From NCBI RefSeq assembly GCF_900100385.1, contig NZ_FNFC01000001.1, forward strand, positions 248,001 through 312,000: a DNA stretch of 64,000 nucleotides, in the 5' to 3' direction. The translations under genes were made by a program, and so were the position numbers. Numbering within the stretch: position 1 is the first letter of the stretch; each line of letters begins with the position of its first letter. The stretch is from Halovenus aranensis (GTDB lineage Archaea; Halobacteriota; Halobacteria; Halobacteriales; Haloarculaceae). The notes beneath the pieces were generated by a model. The model saw only the letters and a program-made list of their open reading frames with translations, made no database searches and had not been told where the DNA came from. Shown here one piece after another: positions 3,035 to 12,050 of this stretch.

Positions 3035-3940
3035 TCAGAGCCAGGGCGGGCGGTCCTGTCCCGGACGGAGACCGGTCGTCGACTCGGTCGCGTCGGTGTC
3101 GTCGTCGGGCGGACCGCCACCGTCTGAGATGGGCGTCGGGCCAGCAACGTCGGCAGATTCGTCCTCGGACAACGAGACATCGAACGCGGCCTCGGCGTGC
3201 TCGCTGGTGTCCCCACCCGGATCGAAGGCGAGCAGCGCGGTCATCCCCAACACGAGCAGAGCGACCGGTGCTTCGGATGGAAGCATCCCGGCGATAGAGA
3301 CCGCCAACACACCGAGTGCGACCGCGCTCCCGAAGCGGAACCGGTCGAGTTCGACCACTTCCTGGAGCCATGGCCGGGCCGCCGCAAGGACGACCCCGAA
3401 TCCGACACCCACACCTGCGGCGGCCATCGCGCGGGCGACCAGTCCCAGGTCGGCCTGAATCGTCAGCGTCGCCTCACTCGGCGAGACCGTTGCGAGAAAG
3501 CCAAGCCCGATGATGAGCGCGGGGCTCGGAAGATACTCGGCAATCTTGGCACTCGCGGTCGACGCCGCCACGGCGAGAATGACCAGCGCGGCAAACCGCT
3601 CGAAGACGGCCATATCGATTGCACTCTCGATAGTTGGAGCCAGTGCGGCCTGTAGCCCCGCAACAGGGACGACGACGACACCGATAGCGAGGACAGTCCC
3701 GACGGACCTGCGGGGAGTTCTGTCCATCTCGGCGAGAATCACGGCGACCATTGCGCTCCCGCCGAAGACGAGGAATCCGACCTCGAGAATGCCGACGAGA
3801 CTGTCGAGCGCGCCGCCGAGGACGAGCGTGACGAAGACGCCGTCGACCAGTGGGAGACACAACACGACTGCGAGCAGTCGGGTGGAATCGCTCACCCACC
3901 GCTCGACGGAAAGGGCACGCGGATGCTGTGAGTTGCTCAT
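3035..3940 (-). CDS. DUF5794 family membrane protein
   Basis: 301 residues with about seven to eight hydrophobic segments between residues 20 and 240, followed by a roughly 60-residue acidic, Asp/Ser/Pro-rich cytoplasmic or external tail (DVSLSEDESADVAG onward). The overall form fits the Halobacteria-specific DUF5794 family; no catalytic motif is visible and no function is known. Start ATG at 3940; a weak small frame (3947-4198) ends six bases upstream on the same strand. Confidence 0.85.
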   Translation of the reverse strand: MSNSQHPRALSVERWVSDSTRLLAVVLCLPLVDGVFVTLVLGGALDSLVGILEVGFLVFGGSAMVAVILAEMDRTPRRSVGTVLAIGVVVVPVAGLQAALAPTIESAIDMAVFERFAALVILAVAASTASAKIAEYLPSPALIIGLGFLATVSPSEATLTIQADLGLVARAMAAAGVGVGFGVVLAAARPWLQEVVELDRFRFGSAVALGVLAVSIAGMLPSEAPVALLVLGMTALLAFDPGGDTSEHAEAAFDVSLSEDESADVAGPTPISDGGGPPDDDTDATESTTGLRPGQDRPPWL

Positions 3941-3946
3941 GCGGTG

Positions 3947-4198
3947 TTAGTGCTGTGGCCGGTCACCCGTTGGCCGTGGGTACTCGCGCTCGGGGCGATG
4001 GTGCCTGTGTGAGAACAGATGACTGCTCTGTTGGGTGCCAGCTTTGGCACCGTCAGAGCGGGCAGCCCACGTCCACGGATTGGCGAGACAGCGTGTCCGC
4101 ATTGCGAAGAGTCCCATCACTCGCGCGATATTCATGTCACCGGAACCGATGACCATCTCACGAGCGCTACTCTCGGCGGCAGGGACTCCGTACGCCAT
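3947..4198 (-). CDS. Possible small hypothetical protein upstream of DUF5794 gene
   Basis: An 83-codon frame starting ATG at 4198 (MAYGVPAAESSAREMVIGSG...). It ends six bases before the DUF5794 start, the spacing of an operon, and an AT-rich stretch GAAATAATAGAT precedes the start. Against it: the second half is Arg/His/Ser-rich (HLFSHRHHRPERE), unlike a folded acidic haloarchaeal protein, and no family is recognised. Treat as tentative; if false, 3941-4313 is an untranslated spacer with no other content that I can see. Confidence 0.3.
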   Translation of the reverse strand: MAYGVPAAESSAREMVIGSGDMNIARVMGLFAMRTRCLANPWTWAARSDGAKAGTQQSSHLFSHRHHRPEREYPRPTGDRPQH

Positions 4199-4313
4199 AT
4201 CTATTATTTCGAGGCGGGAAGTAATAGCCTTGTGTGAGGTGCGTGGACACACCGCTATTTTACCGTCTCTCGCCCTGTGTGTGGCAGTCACGCGGCCGGT
4301 CCAATCTCGCAAT

Positions 4314-4323
4314 CCTTTTTAGA
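4314..4323 (+). promoter_or_regulatory. TATA box of guaB
   Basis: CCTTTTTAGA is centred about 25 nt before the guaB ATG (4344), the distance expected for a leaderless haloarchaeal transcript. Confidence 0.5.
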
Positions 4324-4343
4324 TGGTACGCTAGACGGTTTAC

Positions 4344-5831
4344 ATGGCGAACGATATCGACCCCTTCTCGGAGAAACTGCAGGTACCGGAGGCGCTGACA
4401 TTCGACGACGTACTGCTCAAGCCAAAGCGCAGCGCCGTCGAACCTGACGAGGCAGAGACGGAGACGCAGGTCTCAGCGAACGTTTCGCTGACGGTTCCGA
4501 TTCTCTCCGCGGCGATGGACACCGTCACCGAGAGTGGCATGGCAATTTCGATGGCTCGACACGGTGGGCTGGGTGTCCTCCACCGAAACATGAACCTCGA
4601 CCAGATGGTCGAGGAAATCGAGCGGGTCAAAAGCGCAGACGAACTCATCATTCCGCTCGAAGACGTCGTCACGGTCGACCCCGAGACGAGTGTGCGAGAA
4701 GCGGACAACCTGATGGCTCGTGAGGGTGTCGGCGGTGCGCCGGTCATCAACACCAACGGCGAGGTGCTCGGCATCATCTCCTCGACGGACGTGCGTCCAC
4801 ACCTCGAAGTCGACGAGAACGACCCCGTCAAGAAGGCGATGACCGACGAGGTCATCACCGCGCCCCAGGACATCGACGCCCGCGAGGCCTTCGACCTGAT
4901 GTACGAGCACAAAATCGAGCGCGTTCCCGTCGTCGACGACGAGAACCTGCTCGTCGGCCTGGTGACGATGCAGGGCATCCTCCAGCGCCGAGAGTTCGAC
5001 CAGGCCGTCCGCGACGAGGACGGACAGCTTCGGACGGGCGTCGCGGTCGGCCCCTTCGAACTCGAACGCGCGGCTGCCGCCGACGAGGCCGGGGCCGATA
5101 TCGTGTTCATCGACTGTGCACACGCACACAACGGCAACGTCATCGAGAGCGCCCGAGAGATCAAAGCGACCGTCGAGGCCGACGTCGTCGTCGGCAACAT
5201 CGGCACCCGGGAGGCCGCAAAGGACGTCGTCGACTTCGCCGACGGCGTGAAAGTCGGCATCGGCCCGGGCTCTATCTGTACCACCCGAGTCGTGACGGGC
5301 GCGGGGATGCCCCAGATTACCGCCATCGCACAGGTCGCCGACGTGGCGAGCAAACACGACGTGCCGGTCATCGCCGACGGCGGCATCCGCTACTCCGGCG
5401 ACGCCATCAAGGCCATCGCCGCCGGTGCCGACGCGGTGATGCTCGGTTCGTATTTCGCCGGGACCGACGAAGCCCCCGGTCGCGTCATCACGATGAACGG
5501 CAAGAAGTACAAACAGTACCGCGGAATGGGCAGCGTCGGCGCGATGCAATCTGGCGGCGGCGAGCGCTATCTCAAAGACACCGACGAAGACGACGACTAC
5601 GTCCCCGAGGGCGTCGAGGCCGCGACCCCCTACAAGGGAACGCTCGAATCCGAACTCCAGCAGCTCGTCGGCGGCATGCAGTCGGGCATGGGCTATGTCG
5701 GTGCCCAGTCGATTCCCGAGTTCAAGGAACGCGCGGAGTTCGTCCGCGTCTCTGCGGCCGGCCAACAGGAGAGTCACCCACACGACGTTGTCATCACCGA
5801 CGAAGCGCCGAACTACAGTCCCGACAGCTAG
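4344..5831 (+). CDS. guaB: Inosine-5'-monophosphate dehydrogenase
   Basis: 495 residues, the normal IMPDH length. A TIM barrel starts with FDDVLLKP, interrupted by two CBS domains (about residues 95-215, with [16 protein letters not shown] and [16 protein letters not shown]). The NAD/IMP loop [13 protein letters not shown] contains the catalytic Cys, followed by [28 protein letters not shown] and the flap region YRGMGS. It oxidises IMP to XMP in GMP synthesis. Promoter TATA lies 25 nt upstream. Its last four bases overlap the stop of a small zinc-finger gene on the other strand. Confidence 0.97.
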
Positions 5832-5953
5832 AGCCCTTTTCCTTCCGTCTCACAGGCTGGCGAGCAGTATCCCGCCTCGGCGGCGTTCGCGCCCGCCATA
5901 GATTTAAACGCTGTACCACACTCGTTGCAGGTGTACGTGTCAAGCGAGGCCAT
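5828..5953 (-). CDS. 41-residue zinc-finger micro-protein
   Basis: Minus-strand frame from ATG at 5953: MASLDTYTCNECGTAFKS, then an Ala/Gly-rich linker and [13 protein letters not shown]. The pairs CNEC (residues 9-12) and CSPAC (30-34) form a CxxC...CxxxC treble-clef or TRASH-like zinc site. Haloarchaea encode many such micro zinc-finger proteins; a few regulate biofilm or stress. It is convergent with guaB, overlapping it by four bases. No specific partner can be named. Confidence 0.75.
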   Translation of the reverse strand: MASLDTYTCNECGTAFKSMAGANAAEAGYCSPACETEGKGL

Positions 5954-6166
5954 ACACGCGAGTATTCGGCACGATTCAGTAAAGTAGTTTTCTTGCGGAT
6001 GGCGTTTGGCTCAGTGTCGCTCGGTACGTACAATCTGGTCAGCACGGTACCCGCGTATCTCGTTGCAGTTGACGGAGTCTCTCGATAATTCCTGGGCTGA
6101 TAAAACAGCGAAATATGTACAACAGAGGGGTGTCTGGGTTTGAGCCACGAACACGAGGCTGTCGTC

Positions 6167-7849
6167 ATGCCTGACCCACACGAGCGCCGGCGCTCACGAA
6201 CAGAAGACACGCCCAGGCCCGCCCGCCGAACCGTCCTTGCAGCGAGTGCGACCCTCGCCACGGCAGGCATAGCGGGCTGTTCAGGAGACAGCAACGCAGA
6301 ATCAGAACCGACAGAAACACCGAACCCAACACAGACTGAAACAGAAACAACTGAAACACCTGAAACTACGCCGACAGAAGCACCTCAAGTCGTTGCCACA
6401 AACATCGAGTTCGTCGAGGAAAACGGGGACGAAGTCAAAGACCTCGCACAAGTCAACATCCAGACCAGTGGAAACCCTCAACCCGACGCAGTAAACGCCT
6501 CAATCAACGGCCAACAAGTAGGACTAACCCCAACCGAAGACGGATTCGTCAGCGACACAGTACCAGTCAACCGTGAAGGAAGTTACACGGCACAGGTCGA
6601 AACCAGTGAACAAGTAGAAACAGAACAAGGAAGCTTGGAAGACACGGCAGAATACTTCCTGACAAACGGCCCACAGTTCAGTCAAAGAGAAGACACACCC
6701 GGAATAATAGACATACACCTCGAACCAGACCAAGAAACACCCGGAACACTGGAACGACTCAGCGAAAACGTACTAGAAGCCTCAGTAAAAGTCGACGACC
6801 AAGAACAAAACATACAACTACAAAAAACAGGAGACGAACCCGGCTACCACGCCACCGTCAACGCATACAAAAACAGCGAAATAACCGAAGACATCAGCAT
6901 CGTACTCAACCAACTCCAAGACTTCAAACTCGCCGAAGACAACCTCACCGCAGAAGCAACACAGATAAATCCAGAAAACAAGATCACGGCCGAACAAGTC
7001 TACAAAAACCAGTCAACTGAATCAGTACTAACAGAAGAAGAAATAGAAAACCTCGAAAACTACCAAAACGGCAAACCCACAAACCTCGGCCAACTCATCA
7101 AAGAACTAAACAAACACGCAGACGCCACCCGAAGACAGCTAACAAAAGACTACAAAACAATCACACACCAAGACCTCGGCATCAACACAGACCAAATCAA
7201 AGCAATAGAAAGAACATCCACCAGCGGAGAAAACTACACCGCAATATTCTACAGAGAAAACACAGACACCAACTGGAAAAAAGCACTCGCCGAAGCACAA
7301 AGCAATAAAAAAACAGCACCAGAAGCAGTCCTCCTACCCGGCGAAGAAGTCAACCCCATGGACTTCGAAGCCAAAAGAATCCTCCACGGACTCCACGACC
7401 ACGACGACACTGGCAATGTTGCTTCAATTGATTTCGAGCAGATGGCTGGGATAATCGACAACAGTAATACTGAAGAAAATCTAAGCGAAAGTGAGTGGGA
7501 AGAAAATCTGGAGAGAGGAGATAAATATAATGACAGCCTTGTGATCGGAGAAACACCTGGCGATATTGAGATCGGTTATACGCCAGATGTCAGAGGATAT
7601 CTCGGTGATATAATCCATCCGAGGGATGGTGACGCTGCGAAAGAACTAGAGCTAATTGAATCAGCAACAGAGTACCTCCATAACGCAGTACCGGAAGACC
7701 GCTACATGCAGATAGATGTAGCAGAAACAGTCGAAGAAGGAGAAGAACTCATCGACCTAGAAGACGGAAACACCATGTACGCCACCACAGTAGACGAAGA
7801 AACACACAAAGAAAATGTAATGGAAATATACGACTTAGATGACAACTAG
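6167..7849 (+). CDS. Tat-exported lipoprotein of unknown function with foreign codon usage
   Basis: 560 residues from ATG at 6167 (a TTG at 6140 is less likely). The N-terminus has a twin-arginine signal, ARRTVLAASATLATAGIAGC, with a lipobox ending in Cys, so it should be exported folded and lipid-anchored. A Thr/Pro/Glu-rich spacer (residues 43-75) follows, then about 480 residues without a recognised domain. The gene is strikingly unlike its neighbours: codons ending in A dominate (ACA, GAA, CAA, AAA), G and T are rare at third positions, and GC is visibly lower. Between about 7390 and 7690 usage changes again to T/G-ending codons, then returns. This indicates horizontal acquisition and possibly a recombinant origin. 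Confidence 0.8.
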   Translation: MPDPHERRRSRTEDTPRPARRTVLAASATLATAGIAGCSGDSNAESEPTETPNPTQTETETTETPETTPTEAPQVVATNIEFVEENGDEVKDLAQVNIQTSGNPQPDAVNASINGQQVGLTPTEDGFVSDTVPVNREGSYTAQVETSEQVETEQGSLEDTAEYFLTNGPQFSQREDTPGIIDIHLEPDQETPGTLERLSENVLEASVKVDDQEQNIQLQKTGDEPGYHATVNAYKNSEITEDISIVLNQLQDFKLAEDNLTAEATQINPENKITAEQVYKNQSTESVLTEEEIENLENYQNGKPTNLGQLIKELNKHADATRRQLTKDYKTITHQDLGINTDQIKAIERTSTSGENYTAIFYRENTDTNWKKALAEAQSNKKTAPEAVLLPGEEVNPMDFEAKRILHGLHDHDDTGNVASIDFEQMAGIIDNSNTEENLSESEWEENLERGDKYNDSLVIGETPGDIEIGYTPDVRGYLGDIIHPRDGDAAKELELIESATEYLHNAVPEDRYMQIDVAETVEEGEELIDLEDGNTMYATTVDEETHKENVMEIYDLDDN

Positions 7850-7852
7850 TCA

Positions 7853-8422
7853 TCAGCCCAAATTATTAATCGGGTTTCTTCCTTCTCTCCCTCCAAACTC
7901 TCCACCCTCACCAGTTGGGTACCAGTTCCAGTCGATGATTCCGGTTTCGTCTCCGAGGTCTGCTTCAGTGTACGGGATTTCAGGGTCAGGTGATGTACCG
8001 ATGTTTCCTGCGTCGTCGGTGCCTTCGATGATGTATCCTGCTGTGGTGAAGCCGAGTTCGCCGTTTCCACTGAGTTCAAACTCGTTTTTATAGAATACGT
8101 CGTTGTCCTGTGCTTGCTCCGGCAGGTGGCTGATATCTGTTATCTTCTGGTTTAAGCCGTAGGCGCAGCTGTATGTTTCCTGGTTTACACCGCTGCGGTC
8201 GCTGATGTTCGTGGTGATGTAGACGTCTCCGCCTTCGTACTTGTTGACTGTTTTGCTGCCGCCTTCGCTGGGTCTTTCACCGGTTTCTCCCAGCCAGCAC
8301 TCCGCATCAATCGCCAACGGTTCAGCCCAGTCCTCCTCACCTGTCGCAGAAACACTGTACGCCTTCTCCCATGCACCACCCAAACCCTCCAACTTGAATC
8401 CGACGGGGCCAGACCACCGTTT
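7853..8422 (-). pseudogene. C-terminal remnant of a secreted-type protein
   Basis: An open minus-strand frame of about 190 codons ends at 7853 and is closed by an in-frame TGA at 8423-8425. The only usable start is a TTG at 8392; translation upstream of it (GPVGFKLEGLGG) still looks like protein, so the 5' end has probably been lost. The protein is Gly/Asp/Asn/Thr-rich with many aromatic residues (YITTNISDRSGVNQETYS, GIIDWNWYPTGEGG), typical of surface or beta-rich proteins. Its codons share the A/C-ending bias of the adjacent lipoprotein gene, so both came from the same source. The 260 nt beyond (8423-8681) are GC-rich and hold no convincing gene. Confidence 0.5.
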
Positions 8423-8681
8423 TCAGCGTCGGGTGTCCGCGCTCGCTGGGGGCACCGCGTGGCGACCAGCCGCCACGTGCGTAGTTGCGGGTCGTCGGCC
8501 CGTCCCTCGCTCCTCGAAAAACGTGGGTAAAAACCGACGGCTCGGCCGGCCTCGGTGGCGGTGAAACCCCTCGCTCGGCGTCTGCTTGTGCGTCGTTTCG
8601 TTCAGGACGTGTGTCTCGCCGAGCCACAGACGATGCTGTTCGCCCAAATACCTATTGGTAAGACCAACGTATTACGTCTAT

Positions 8682-8963
8682 ATGTCTGGAACAACTACAG
8701 AAGGAAACGGAGATGACGAGATTGTCACGGTGAACTTCAAGCTCACCGAGTCGTTCCTGGACGAGATCGACGACACGTGGCAAGGACGTGGCTTCAACAG
8801 CCGGAGCGAGTTCATTCGCTACACGCTGCGCGACGCTGTGGAGTTCCCGACGTTCGACCGCGACGAACTCATCGCCCTGCTTGGGGCCGAAGAAGATGTT
8901 CGGGAGGGACAGACAATGACGGCAGACGAGGCGCGCGAGCGGTTCGGCACGGACGATGAATGA
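8682..8963 (+). CDS. Ribbon-helix-helix antitoxin (CopG/ParD type)
   Basis: 93 residues from ATG at 8682. VTVNFKLTESFLDEIDDTW is the ribbon plus first helix, and GFNSRSEFIRYTLRDAV the helix-turn region that gives the RHH DNA-binding dimer. The C-terminal part (DRDELIALLGAEED to MTADEARERFGTDDE) is the usual toxin-wrapping segment. It overlaps the start of a ParE/RelE toxin gene by eight bases, so the pair is translated together, and it probably represses its own promoter. Base composition is normal for the chromosome, unlike the island to the left. Confidence 0.88.
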   Translation: MSGTTTEGNGDDEIVTVNFKLTESFLDEIDDTWQGRGFNSRSEFIRYTLRDAVEFPTFDRDELIALLGAEEDVREGQTMTADEARERFGTDDE

Positions 8964-9240
8964 CGACGAGTGGACGTGGGAACTCTCCTCGACCGCGCAA
9001 GGCGACCTCGATGGGCTCTCGCCAGATGAACAAGAGCGGATACTCGACAAACTCGACGAAATCACGACGTCTCCGTGGCGTGAGCCGCCTGCCTACGGCG
9101 AACCACTCCAGAATAGCCCGTACAAGAAGATTCGTATCGGCGAGTTTCGGCTCTCCGTCGCCTTCCGGCAAGACGAGTGTCGAGTAGTAGTCGCCCGAAT
9201 CAAGCGTCGTGGTGGCGCGTACACGGCTGACGACGATTAA
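8956..9240 (+). CDS. RelE/ParE family toxin
   Basis: 94 residues with the family layout: WELSSTAQGDLDGLSPDEQERILDKLDEI (two N-terminal helices), then strands ending in YKKIRIGEFRLSVAFRQDECRVVVARIKRRGGAY. The RIGEFRLSV and VVVARIKRR blocks are the core beta hairpin of RelE/ParE folds. RelE members cut mRNA on the ribosome and ParE members poison gyrase; the sequence alone does not decide which. It overlaps its antitoxin by eight bases. Confidence 0.88.
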   Translation: MNDDEWTWELSSTAQGDLDGLSPDEQERILDKLDEITTSPWREPPAYGEPLQNSPYKKIRIGEFRLSVAFRQDECRVVVARIKRRGGAYTADDD

Positions 9241-9270
9241 CTGACCGACGGTACCGAGAAAAGTCCTGCG

Positions 9271-9516
9271 CTACGCGTAGGTTTCTTCGAGGTACTCGAC
9301 GATGTCGTCGCTTTCGGGCATCCCCTCGATGCCGTTGGTGTTGTCGACGAGCACCGGGACTCCGGTCTGGCCGCTCACCTTCTCGACTTCGGTCCGCTCG
9401 CTGTGGCTGCGGGGGACCATGTGAGACTCGTAATCGAGGCCGAGCTCGTCGAGTTTGTTGATTACTTTCTCGCAGTACGGACAGCCCTCAAGCTCGTAGA
9501 GTTCAAGATCTGGCAT
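9271..9516 (-). CDS. Glutaredoxin-like protein
   Basis: 81 residues from the ATG at 9516: LELYELEGCPYCEKVINKLDELGLDYES begins a thioredoxin fold with the CPYC redox centre at residues 11-14, followed by the cis-Pro loop TGVPVLVD and a C-terminal SDDIVEYLEE helix. It is a small dithiol oxidoreductase for cytoplasmic thiol chemistry; haloarchaea use gamma-glutamylcysteine rather than glutathione. The upstream 25 codons of the open frame are not conserved-looking and are excluded. It lies downstream of pyrE with 71 nt between. Confidence 0.9.
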   Translation of the reverse strand: MPDLELYELEGCPYCEKVINKLDELGLDYESHMVPRSHSERTEVEKVSGQTGVPVLVDNTNGIEGMPESDDIVEYLEETYA

Positions 9517-9587
9517 CGAGAATAGATACGAATCGGACGAATAAGAAAGGGGCGGTACTGTACAAGCATTGGGACCGCCGCGGCCGG

Positions 9588-10112
9588 TCACTCTGCGTGT
9601 TCGTCGAGCAGCTCCGAGGCCGTCAGCAGCGACTGGAGTTCGACGCCGGCGTCGGCGAGGTTCTCGCTGGCCCCTTCCTCGCGGTCGACGACCACCAGCA
9701 CGCGGTCGACGACGGCCCCGGCCTCCCGGAGTGCCTCGACGGCGTCGACGGCGCTCTGGCCCGTGGTCGCGATGTCTTCGAGCACGACGACCTCTTCGCC
9801 CTCCTCGAACTGGCCCTCGATGCGGTTGCCGGTGCCGTACTCCTTTGCCTGCTTGCGGACGATGACGTAGGGGTTGCCGGCGGCGACGCTGGTCGCGGCA
9901 GCGAGCGGCACCGCACCGAGCGCGACGCCCGCCAGTGTCTCGTCAGTGACGCGGTCGGCAAACGCCGCCGCAATCGCCTCAAGACAGTCCGGGTCCGTCT
10001 CGAAGAGGTACTTGTCGACGTAGTAGTCGCTGGTGCCGCCGTGTGACAGCTCGAACTCGCCGTATTTGACCGCGTCGACGCCACGAAGGAGGTCGATGAG
10101 CGACTCCGTCAT
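9588..10112 (-). CDS. pyrE: Orotate phosphoribosyltransferase
   Basis: 174 residues. The PRPP-binding motif [18 protein letters not shown] (about residues 108-125) and the upstream [18 protein letters not shown] loop carrying the catalytic Lys are clear; the N-terminal hood is [17 protein letters not shown]. It makes OMP from orotate and PRPP in pyrimidine synthesis. It is divergent from the phosphohexomutase gene, about 95 nt apart. pyrE is the well-known uracil marker gene in haloarchaea. Confidence 0.96.
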
Positions 10113-10206
10113 ATCTCGGCACAGACGACCGGCGGTAATGGCTCTGGCGGTCTCCCCGGCCGAGCCCGCAAGTCACAATCACTATGACCACGGGGGACAG
10201 ACGAGT

Positions 10207-11562
10207 ATGCGAATGAACGTATTCGGGTCGAGCGGCGTCCGCGGTGTCGCGCTCGACGAGCTGACACCTGCGGATACGGTCGAACTCGCGCAGGCAGCAG
10301 GGGCTGTGTTCCGAGACCGGAACGCACGGGTCGCCGTCGGCCGCGACAGCCGTCTGACAGGGGAGCTGTTCGTCCACGCGGTCGCCAGTGGTCTGGCGAG
10401 TGTGGGCTGTGATGTCGACTGTCTGGGCGTCGTGCCGACGCCGTCGCTCCAGGCGTACTGCGAACAGGCGGGAGTTCCGGGCGTGATGGTCACCGCCTCC
10501 CACAACCCGCCGGAGTTCAACGGTATCAAGCTCATCGGTGACAACGGTGTCGAGTTGACCCGTGATACCCTCGAACGGGTCGAGAGCCACCTGGAAGCCG
10601 AGTCGGCGATGACGACCTGGGACGAGGCCGGCGAGATTCGGAGCACTGAGGGCGCAAACAGCGCGTACCGCGAGCAACTCCTCGAGGCAGTCGACCGTGA
10701 CCGTATCGCCGGGGCAGAGCTGACGGTCGCGCTCGACCCCGGCCACGGAGCCGGGTCGCTCACTAGCCCCGGCCTGTTTCGCGAACTCGGCTGTACAGTC
10801 AAAACAATCAACGCCCAGCCAGACGGACGATTCCCCGGCCGAGACCCTGAACCGGTCCAGGAGAACCTCGCCGAACTCGGCCGCCTCGTCGAGTCAGCGG
10901 GTGCCGATATCGGCATCGCCCACGACGGCGACGCAGACAGGGCCATCTTCTTCGACGAGACCGGTGCCTTCGTCGACGGCGACGCCGCACTCGCCGCGCT
11001 GACAGCCCCAGAGCTCGACGCCGGCGACACTGTTGTCTCGGCAGTCAACGCCTCACAGCGACTCGTCGACGTGACGACCGACGCCGACGCGTCACTCAGA
11101 CTGACACCAATCGGCAGCACGCATCTTATCACCGCGATTCGGGAGCTCCAGGCCGCCGGCGAGACAGTCTCGATTGCGGGCGAGGGCAACGGCGGCATCA
11201 TCTACCCCAGCTATCGCGTCGCGAGAGACGGGGCTTACACCGCTGCTAGGCTGTGTGAACTCATCGTCGAGACGCCTCTCAGCGAACTAATCGCACCCTA
11301 CGACGGGTACGCTAACGTTCGCCGGAACATCTCGTACGACACCGACGAGGAGCGCGAAGCGATGATCGACGCCATCAGCGCCGTTGCCGAGGAGGCCGAC
11401 GCCACGGTCGATACGACCGACGGCTACCGGCTCGATTACGGCGACGCGTGGGTGCTTGCCCGGCCAAGCGGGACGGAGCCAGTCATCCGCGTCTACGCAG
11501 AGGCAAGGTCCCAAGAGCGTGCCGAGACGCTCGTCGACCAGATGGCCGGTGCAATCAGCTAA
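10207..11562 (+). CDS. glmM: Phosphoglucosamine mutase-like phosphohexomutase
   Basis: 451 residues from the ATG at 10207. All four signature loops of the alpha-D-phosphohexomutase family are present: FGSSGVRG at the N-terminus, [13 protein letters not shown] with the phosphoserine, [11 protein letters not shown] binding Mg, [10 protein letters not shown] for sugar recognition and [15 protein letters not shown] for the phosphate. It interconverts hexose or hexosamine 1- and 6-phosphates for surface glycans; the exact sugar cannot be read from sequence. The stop overlaps that of the convergent tsr3 gene by four bases. Confidence 0.93.
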
Positions 11563-12050
11563 TCGGCGAGATACTCGTCCTGAATTGCTATCACGTCACT
11601 CGAATCAGCACAGTCAGCGTACCGCTTCAGCGGCTCCTCGTTGAGGTCGAGAAACGTCTGTCCCCACGAGAAATGCGAGAGGACGCGCTCGGCCTGTGTG
11701 CGCTCGCCGAGGATACACAGCGCCCCGGCGAAGGCCTCGACCGTGTTCAACTGGAAGGCAGTGCCGTAGTTGATTGGGTTACTTGCGACCAGAAACGGGA
11801 GCGAGCGCTGGCTGCCCGCGAGGTCGAAGGCTTCGGCCTCGGCCGTCTCCCAGGAACAGTCGAGCGCGACGAGGCGACTCTCGTCTGAATCGGCCGGCGA
11901 GAGCGCCCGCTCGGCGAATGGGTTGAGGACGATTCCCGGCGGGGTCGCCCGCGTCGAGCGGTGTAAGGCGGCCTCGTCGAATTTCGCGAGTCGCCGGGCC
12001 GTACACTTCTCGGGGTCGTCGTTGCCCTCGTATCTGACGTGAAGCTCCAC
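11559..12050 (-). CDS. Tsr3-type rRNA aminocarboxypropyltransferase (DUF367)
   Basis: 163 residues starting at the GTG at 12050 ([23 protein letters not shown]), the usual family start; the longer GTG frame from 12074 adds eight unconserved residues. [23 protein letters not shown] and [13 protein letters not shown] match the archaeal Tsr3 family, which transfers the aminocarboxypropyl group of SAM to small-subunit rRNA during ribosome maturation. It is convergent with the mutase gene. Confidence 0.9.

Follow-up and report, generated by a model that had tools for sequence, protein, structure and literature searches.

Does the low-GC stretch downstream of guaB in Halovenus aranensis represent imported DNA, and what could the two genes that it carries be doing there? 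The stretch lies in a 64,000-nucleotide piece of the genome, hereafter called the window, whose numbering is used throughout, between guaB (4344-5831) and an RHH/ParE toxin-antitoxin pair (8682-9240). Genomes are designated by our own handles, the window genome being G000; two further genomes, which we take to be Halovenus carboxidivorans (G007) and H. salina (G002), belong to the same GTDB genus. The features considered are as follows.

5969..9274, no strand: variable segment relative to H. salina (blastn), containing the lipoprotein gene, the partner remnant, the repeat, and the toxin-antitoxin pair
6167..7849, plus strand: predicted Tat lipoprotein of 560 aa (open reading frame and translation; RR motif, lipobox ..AGC-S, Thr/Glu-rich linker)
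6389..6946, plus strand: predicted beta-sandwich (Ig/FN3-like) region, residues about 75-260, with the resemblance to Ig/FN3 sandwiches reaching back to about residue 66 (AlphaFold model, Foldseek, VIA-align)
6968..7849, plus strand: core domain with no known fold, common to all 10 lipoproteins (alignments and profile searches)
7412..7660, plus strand: dip in the A/C bias, about 83 codons (residues 416-498), A+C 0.46 versus 0.95 in 6692-7411
7853..8422, minus strand: partner remnant, an open frame in which neither a start codon nor a signal is seen; two Cys are conserved, and homology stops near 8404
8415..8600, no strand: GC-rich repeat of two pieces, matched at 74-88% by a second contig of this genome (G000:C7:48071-48223)
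8682..8963, plus strand: RHH (CopG-like) antitoxin (Pfam RHH_1, 16.8 bits, short of the 20.5 cut-off), in the variable segment
8956..9240, plus strand: ParE-type toxin (Pfam ParE_toxin, 23.4 bits; cut-off 23), in the variable segment

The low GC content claimed in the initial annotation proved to be real. Over the 64 kb, 1500-bp sliding windows had a median GC of 0.628 (sd 0.033), and the lowest values (0.462-0.473) belonged to those starting at 6501, 6751, and 6251; GC was 0.480 over 6400-8404 and 0.48 in the lipoprotein gene. Dominance of codons ending in A or C, which had been attributed to both genes, was evident in the lipoprotein gene (A3 0.43; C3 0.37-0.38; A+C 0.81, and 0.95 over 6692-7411) but only moderate in the partner (A+C 0.65-0.67; A3 0.26; GC 0.53-0.54), the other long open reading frames of the window showing A+C of 0.37-0.64 and A3 of 0.06-0.20. 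The sharp borders proposed near 6060 and 8422 had to be abandoned. On the left, the first 30 lipoprotein codons have a GC3 of 0.67 and the bias rises over the first 60-100 codons; on the right, 7853-8422 is a stop-to-stop frame, and both the homology and the foreign composition stop at about 8404.

The extent of 6060-8422 also had to be revised by blastn comparison with H. salina, in which the flanks around guaB are collinear with the window (3597-5968, 87%; 9275-12000, 84%). Homology breaks at 5968 and resumes at 9275, delimiting a wider segment that includes the RHH/ParE pair, and in place of window positions 5969-9274 H. salina carries an unrelated 1.25 kb. This is the comparison suggested for finding an empty site: the pair of genes is absent there, and the site is better described as variable than as truly empty. 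At this site (L101), a PAS-like ORF occupies the place of the pair and the toxin-antitoxin genes, and this replacement makes the guaB site look like a hot spot for cargo. H. salina has its own pair about 1.4 Mb away, adjoining tRNA-Val. Absence at guaB combined with presence elsewhere in the same genome marks the pair as mobile cargo, and its mobility is well supported.

A first lipoprotein search of 97 relatives recovered two full-length homologues, in G007 and G002 (38-41% identity); the other matches listed were set aside because they end in the signal/linker region or just past it. Iterated profiles found the lipoprotein core in 9 of 146 Haloarculaceae genomes, and a tenth copy is present in G077, which belongs to another family. 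Within the order (392 genomes), the first profile, built from Halovenus only, matched four genomes, in one case outside the core; G158, whose match is confined to profile positions 19-123, before the core, was not counted as a family member. Partner copies turned up in 8 of the 146 Haloarculaceae genomes; the search across the order's 392 genomes gave five, each of them in Haloarculaceae. Seven genomes carry both genes (G000, G002, G018, G037, G039, G238, and G413), always tail to tail, with -9 to +9 bp separating the stops; the eighth partner, in G419, lies at a contig end, and profile searches found no partner for the lipoproteins of G007, G307, and G077. The cores are 17-44% identical to that of the window copy. 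Each genome has one copy, and every copy occupies a different chromosomal place, with neighbours that include tRNA-Val (G002) and fumarase-like (G037), HMG-CoA synthase-like (G413), HD-domain (G039), RidA-like (G307), and LeuRS-like (G077) genes; open reading frames around the loci were read by eye, and neighbour names were read from sequence unless Pfam is cited. The patchy presence, the differing loci, and the absence at guaB in H. salina support import independently of composition. The case that would have spoken against import, namely relatives carrying these genes with ordinary codon use at this very locus, was sought and did not turn up, and the homologues elsewhere are equally odd in their codons.

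Mobility could simply reflect passenger DNA, that is, a short piece of an AT-rich virus, plasmid, or symbiotic archaeon (e.g., nanohaloarchaea) with attachment or surface genes, of no use to the recipient and visible only because it is recent. The single, patchily distributed copies at different loci, the AT-rich codon background, and a tight tail-to-tail packing like that of compact genomes are all consistent with this, as is the H. carboxidivorans copy, which shares its low-GC element with genes for a tyrosine integrase and for HerA-like and Orc1-like proteins. However, neutral cargo should break both genes equally, whereas the lipoprotein is open from signal to stop in all 10 copies and the partner is broken in all eight; furthermore, neither gene has relatives in the phage, plasmid, or IMG/VR viral-contig collections. 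We consider passenger DNA rather unlikely on this balance. The end of the H. carboxidivorans contig (L016 1-9795; GC 0.47) encodes HerA-like, Rad50-like, tyrosine integrase, and Orc1-like proteins beside the lipoprotein, and this low-GC stretch is probably an integrated element.

The codon regime bears on where the DNA came from. First and second codon positions are little changed, which makes the bias synonymous. In each of the two convergent genes it goes with the coding strand and is thus not a replication-strand effect. In eight pooled copies, AGA accounts for 62% of Arg codons in the biased part and 69% in the dip, compared with 5% in ten host genes, and GAA for 94% of Glu codons in the biased part. 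The dip occurs at the homologous place in 8 of the 10 copies: with Met and Trp codons left out, the drop relative to residues 267-415 was significant in these eight (Fisher p 8e-3 to 3e-16), whereas G077 and G307 show none. By a cruder measure, no 80-codon drop in 22 host genes was greater than 0.27, a value surpassed by six copies (0.32-0.42) and not exceeded by G007, G018, G077, and G307. An overlapping gene or RNA in the dip was considered and rejected; codon identity at conserved residues (0.42) equalled that expected from usage (0.42), giving no sign of a hidden conserved overlapping element, and no Rfam match was found in window 5800-9300. A switch of codon regimes takes place within the gene, at the same place in divergent homologues, and raises the question of selection along the gene versus a mosaic origin.

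Could the odd composition be no footprint of import at all, and instead reflect selection on codon choice in the lipoprotein family, whatever genome it resides in? Similar bias in all 10 genomes, spanning several genera and on the coding strand of both genes, is what such selection might produce, as is an along-gene pattern retained in 8 of 10 copies at 17-44% core identity, and no sampled low-GC relative shows the A/C bias. Against this, the dip is AT-rich, with codons like those of an unselected AT-rich gene (AAT, GAT, ATT, GTT, ACT, and also AGA), and in this unlike the GC-rich host, an indication of an AT-rich mutational past; we regard such codon selection as improbable. The high share of AGA, and the fact that AT-richness persists even where codon selection is off, make an AT-rich source likely. 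Donor candidates were sampled as 20-kb-scale stretches of low-GC Halobacteriales (genus g23, GC 0.39-0.46; G065, GC 0.47-0.48). Among the 225 ORFs of 150 aa or longer in 19 loci (L030-L048), one had A+C above 0.68 together with A3 above 0.25, and this was the G077 lipoprotein itself; four short ORFs (102-129 aa) in the g23 stretches lay at 0.66-0.72. Without the A/C bias, these samples make poor donor candidates. The bias is also missing from the genes that accompany the lipoprotein in the H. carboxidivorans element, and the accessible parts of PMC3316494 and PMC3198991 give no A/C codon rule for Nanohaloarchaea. Hence, of the earlier proposal of import from a lower-GC archaeon, import stands and the lower-GC archaeon is unproven. 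The g23 genomes (L030, L031, L106-L123), of the same order (family f2), are about 1 Mb in size with a GC of 0.39-0.46, and their ribosomal genes are not A/C biased.

The lipoprotein is predicted to be exported and anchored. The twin Arg and the Ala-Gly-Cys are invariant in nine aligned lipoproteins, and the tenth copy, in G238, likewise reads TTRR..SIAGC; with an N-terminal RR, a hydrophobic stretch, and a lipobox ending in ..GC, the product has the features expected of a haloarchaeal Tat lipoprotein. Lengths range from 350 to 570 aa across copies. The Ig/FN3-like region is present only in the three Halovenus copies, with pLDDT of 47-79 in 10-residue blocks, and its Foldseek and VIA-align matches (best Z 8.7 over 90 residues) may reflect a common fold only. 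Structure models were poor (mean pLDDT 51.5 and 46.6), and fold searches placed only this region, the core model being too poor for searching; judged from secondary structure, the core may have a transglutaminase-like look, although this is an impression. The absence of known domains that had been noted for both products was borne out by Pfam, which assigned no family to either, and the core and the partner have no relatives in Pfam, NCBIfam, PADLOC, or solved structures beyond weak matches. A PADLOC match to PD-T4-6 (3 of 9 members, best E 0.0018) and matches in NCBIfam and PHROG were dismissed as weak; the weak matches shown for the window copy in these three collections fall mostly on the signal/linker region.

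The initial annotation had both products looking exported and one gene without its 5' end. The latter fits the partner frame, which lacks a start codon; the former applies to the lipoprotein, through its twin Arg and lipobox Cys, but not to the partner, which has no remaining export signal. None of the eight partner copies has a clear start and signal, no start codon is conserved, and the 5' end is unclear or broken throughout. Several frames open near a ..GF.L/I.. motif. The surroundings of the broken end differ: the partners of G413 and G018 lie directly behind the stop codon of another gene (PIN or HTH), G037 has a short inverted-repeat element on the 5' side, and the window partner adjoins the GC-rich repeat, perhaps an intergenic repeat or an insertion-element relic. 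The G037 element (L018 5988-6097), whose 27-nt arms are 81% complementary with the outer 16 nt perfect by eye, lies exactly at the broken 5' end and looks like a MITE. G002 shows internal loss and a frame change and G039 a deeper truncation, and the first Cys motif is gone in both. The two Cys are 44-52 residues apart in all five long copies, and the G419 translation also contains both motifs; this pair hints at an extracellular, disulfide-bonded domain. We would guess that the partner derives from an exported protein of which only a part is left. No intact partner was found among the eight copies from the 146 Haloarculaceae genomes, which leaves its identity as an exported effector a guess; the partner profile hit one place per genome, always without a clear 5' end, and a parent with another C-terminus would escape it.

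The partner frames are open over 137-222 codons, and over 188-222 codons from stop to stop in 5 of 8 copies, which fits recent decay and fits a still-used product as well. In the latter case, the locus would be a working two-gene surface module, in which translation of the partner begins at a rare or internal start and the two products act together, e.g., in adhesion or recognition. The long open frames, the conserved Cys pair, and the tail-to-tail order in 7 of 7 pairs agree with such a module, yet no copy has a conserved start codon or signal, the first Cys motif has been lost in G039 and G002, and three lipoproteins stand alone. We judge this module unlikely, if less so than selection on codon choice.

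Of 11 loci, 4 (window, G413, G419, and G039) have Pfam-supported toxin-antitoxin genes as neighbours. Candidates read as a PIN protein (G037), a PIN-like toxin (G238), and a toxin ORF (G419) matched no Pfam family and were not counted as toxin-antitoxin for this reason, G419 being counted for its RHH antitoxin. At the G419 locus (L068 261-792), the RHH antitoxin and a short ParE/RelE-like ORF adjoin the partner fragment in a head-out arrangement, as in the window. Given 91 PIN matches in 10 genomes (about 31.8 Mb), two within about 1.2 kb of a pair compare with about 0.1 expected within 2 kb, an excess that is suggestive only.

The asymmetry between an intact lipoprotein and a broken partner, along with the toxin-antitoxin genes at 4 of 11 loci, leads us to prefer, tentatively and with less than even confidence, an acquired cargo in which a surface-protection lipoprotein has been kept together with the disarmed remnant of its cognate exported effector. 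The segment would have been acquired horizontally. The lipoprotein would leave the cell by the Tat route and be tethered to the membrane via its lipobox Cys, presenting the core domain outside the cell, in Halovenus on an additional Ig/FN3-like stalk, and would protect the cell surface against the cognate exported protein. The partner would be what is left of the cognate gene, a disulfide-bonded extracellular domain, travelling with the lipoprotein because the genes abut and disarmed through loss of its 5' end. Protection is inferred from the anatomy of the loci; what is observed is the closely packed tail-to-tail pair, its scattered placement, the intact lipoprotein beside a broken partner, and the foreign codon use. 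Searches of Pfam, NCBIfam, and PADLOC recognised no toxin, immunity, or defence family in either product, which counts against it, as do the tail-to-tail genes, the three lipoproteins without a partner (G007, G077, and G307), the poor structure models, and the partner frames that are still open. A fuller version appears doubtful to us: a hitherto undescribed mobile protection cassette spreading between haloarchaeal genera, its disarmed effector dragged along by tail-to-tail linkage, which came from an AT-rich unsequenced donor whose genes, tuned for expression, use A/C-ending codons save in one conserved stretch. A lipoprotein that is always whole beside a tail-to-tail neighbour that is always broken offers a testable lead on surface conflict between archaea.

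A search of the literature, judged by the titles and abstract openings listed, found no description of this convergent lipoprotein/partner pair. To our knowledge, the toxin-immunity pairs described so far consist of co-directed genes. The window lipoprotein resembles haloarchaeal Tat lipoproteins in its twin Arg, lipobox Cys, and Thr/Glu-rich linker and differs from them in a core domain without a family match and in codon use foreign to the host. Type II toxin-antitoxin systems comprise two small co-directed cytosolic genes, whereas the present pair is convergent and its lipoproteins span 350-570 aa. The accessible part of PMC8416519 describes the majority of archaeal lipoproteins as uncharacterised. 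With the toxin-immunity pairs of the contractile injection (CIS/T6SS) type in Halogeometricum borinquense, in which the neighbouring gene protects, our pair shares its nature as a haloarchaeal two-gene unit, as far as the accessible part of PMC11566945 describes them; there, however, the immunity gene lies downstream of the toxin, some toxins carry DUF4157, several pairs are near a contractile injection cluster, and that part of the source makes no mention of a lipoprotein. The VARTIG modules of Thermococcales, as described in the accessible part of PMC8416519, likewise involve Ig-like surface proteins at hypervariable, recently acquired loci and are of unknown function. They comprise a large multi-Ig protein with a hypervariable C-terminal Ig domain followed by a co-directed gene array, whereas our Ig-like part belongs to a lipoprotein, occurs in Halovenus only, and the unit consists of two convergent genes in all 7 pairs. 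Orphan toxin-immunity modules (polymorphic toxins, CDI/Rhs, and archaeal PTS), whose features are taken in part from the accessible part of PMC8416519, are similar in having an intact gene next to a truncated one, scattered copies, and variable loci; in those modules the truncated gene lacks its N-terminal delivery part, and the partner, without a clear start or signal in 8 of 8 copies, may have lost a comparable one. They differ in that the immunity gene lies directly downstream in the same direction, whereas all 7 of our pairs are tail to tail, and in that our pair has no recognisable toxin domain, nor did the genomes that carry it yield a full-length parent. Owing to the missing co-direction, we do not file the pair under orphan toxin-immunity modules, although it may work like one.
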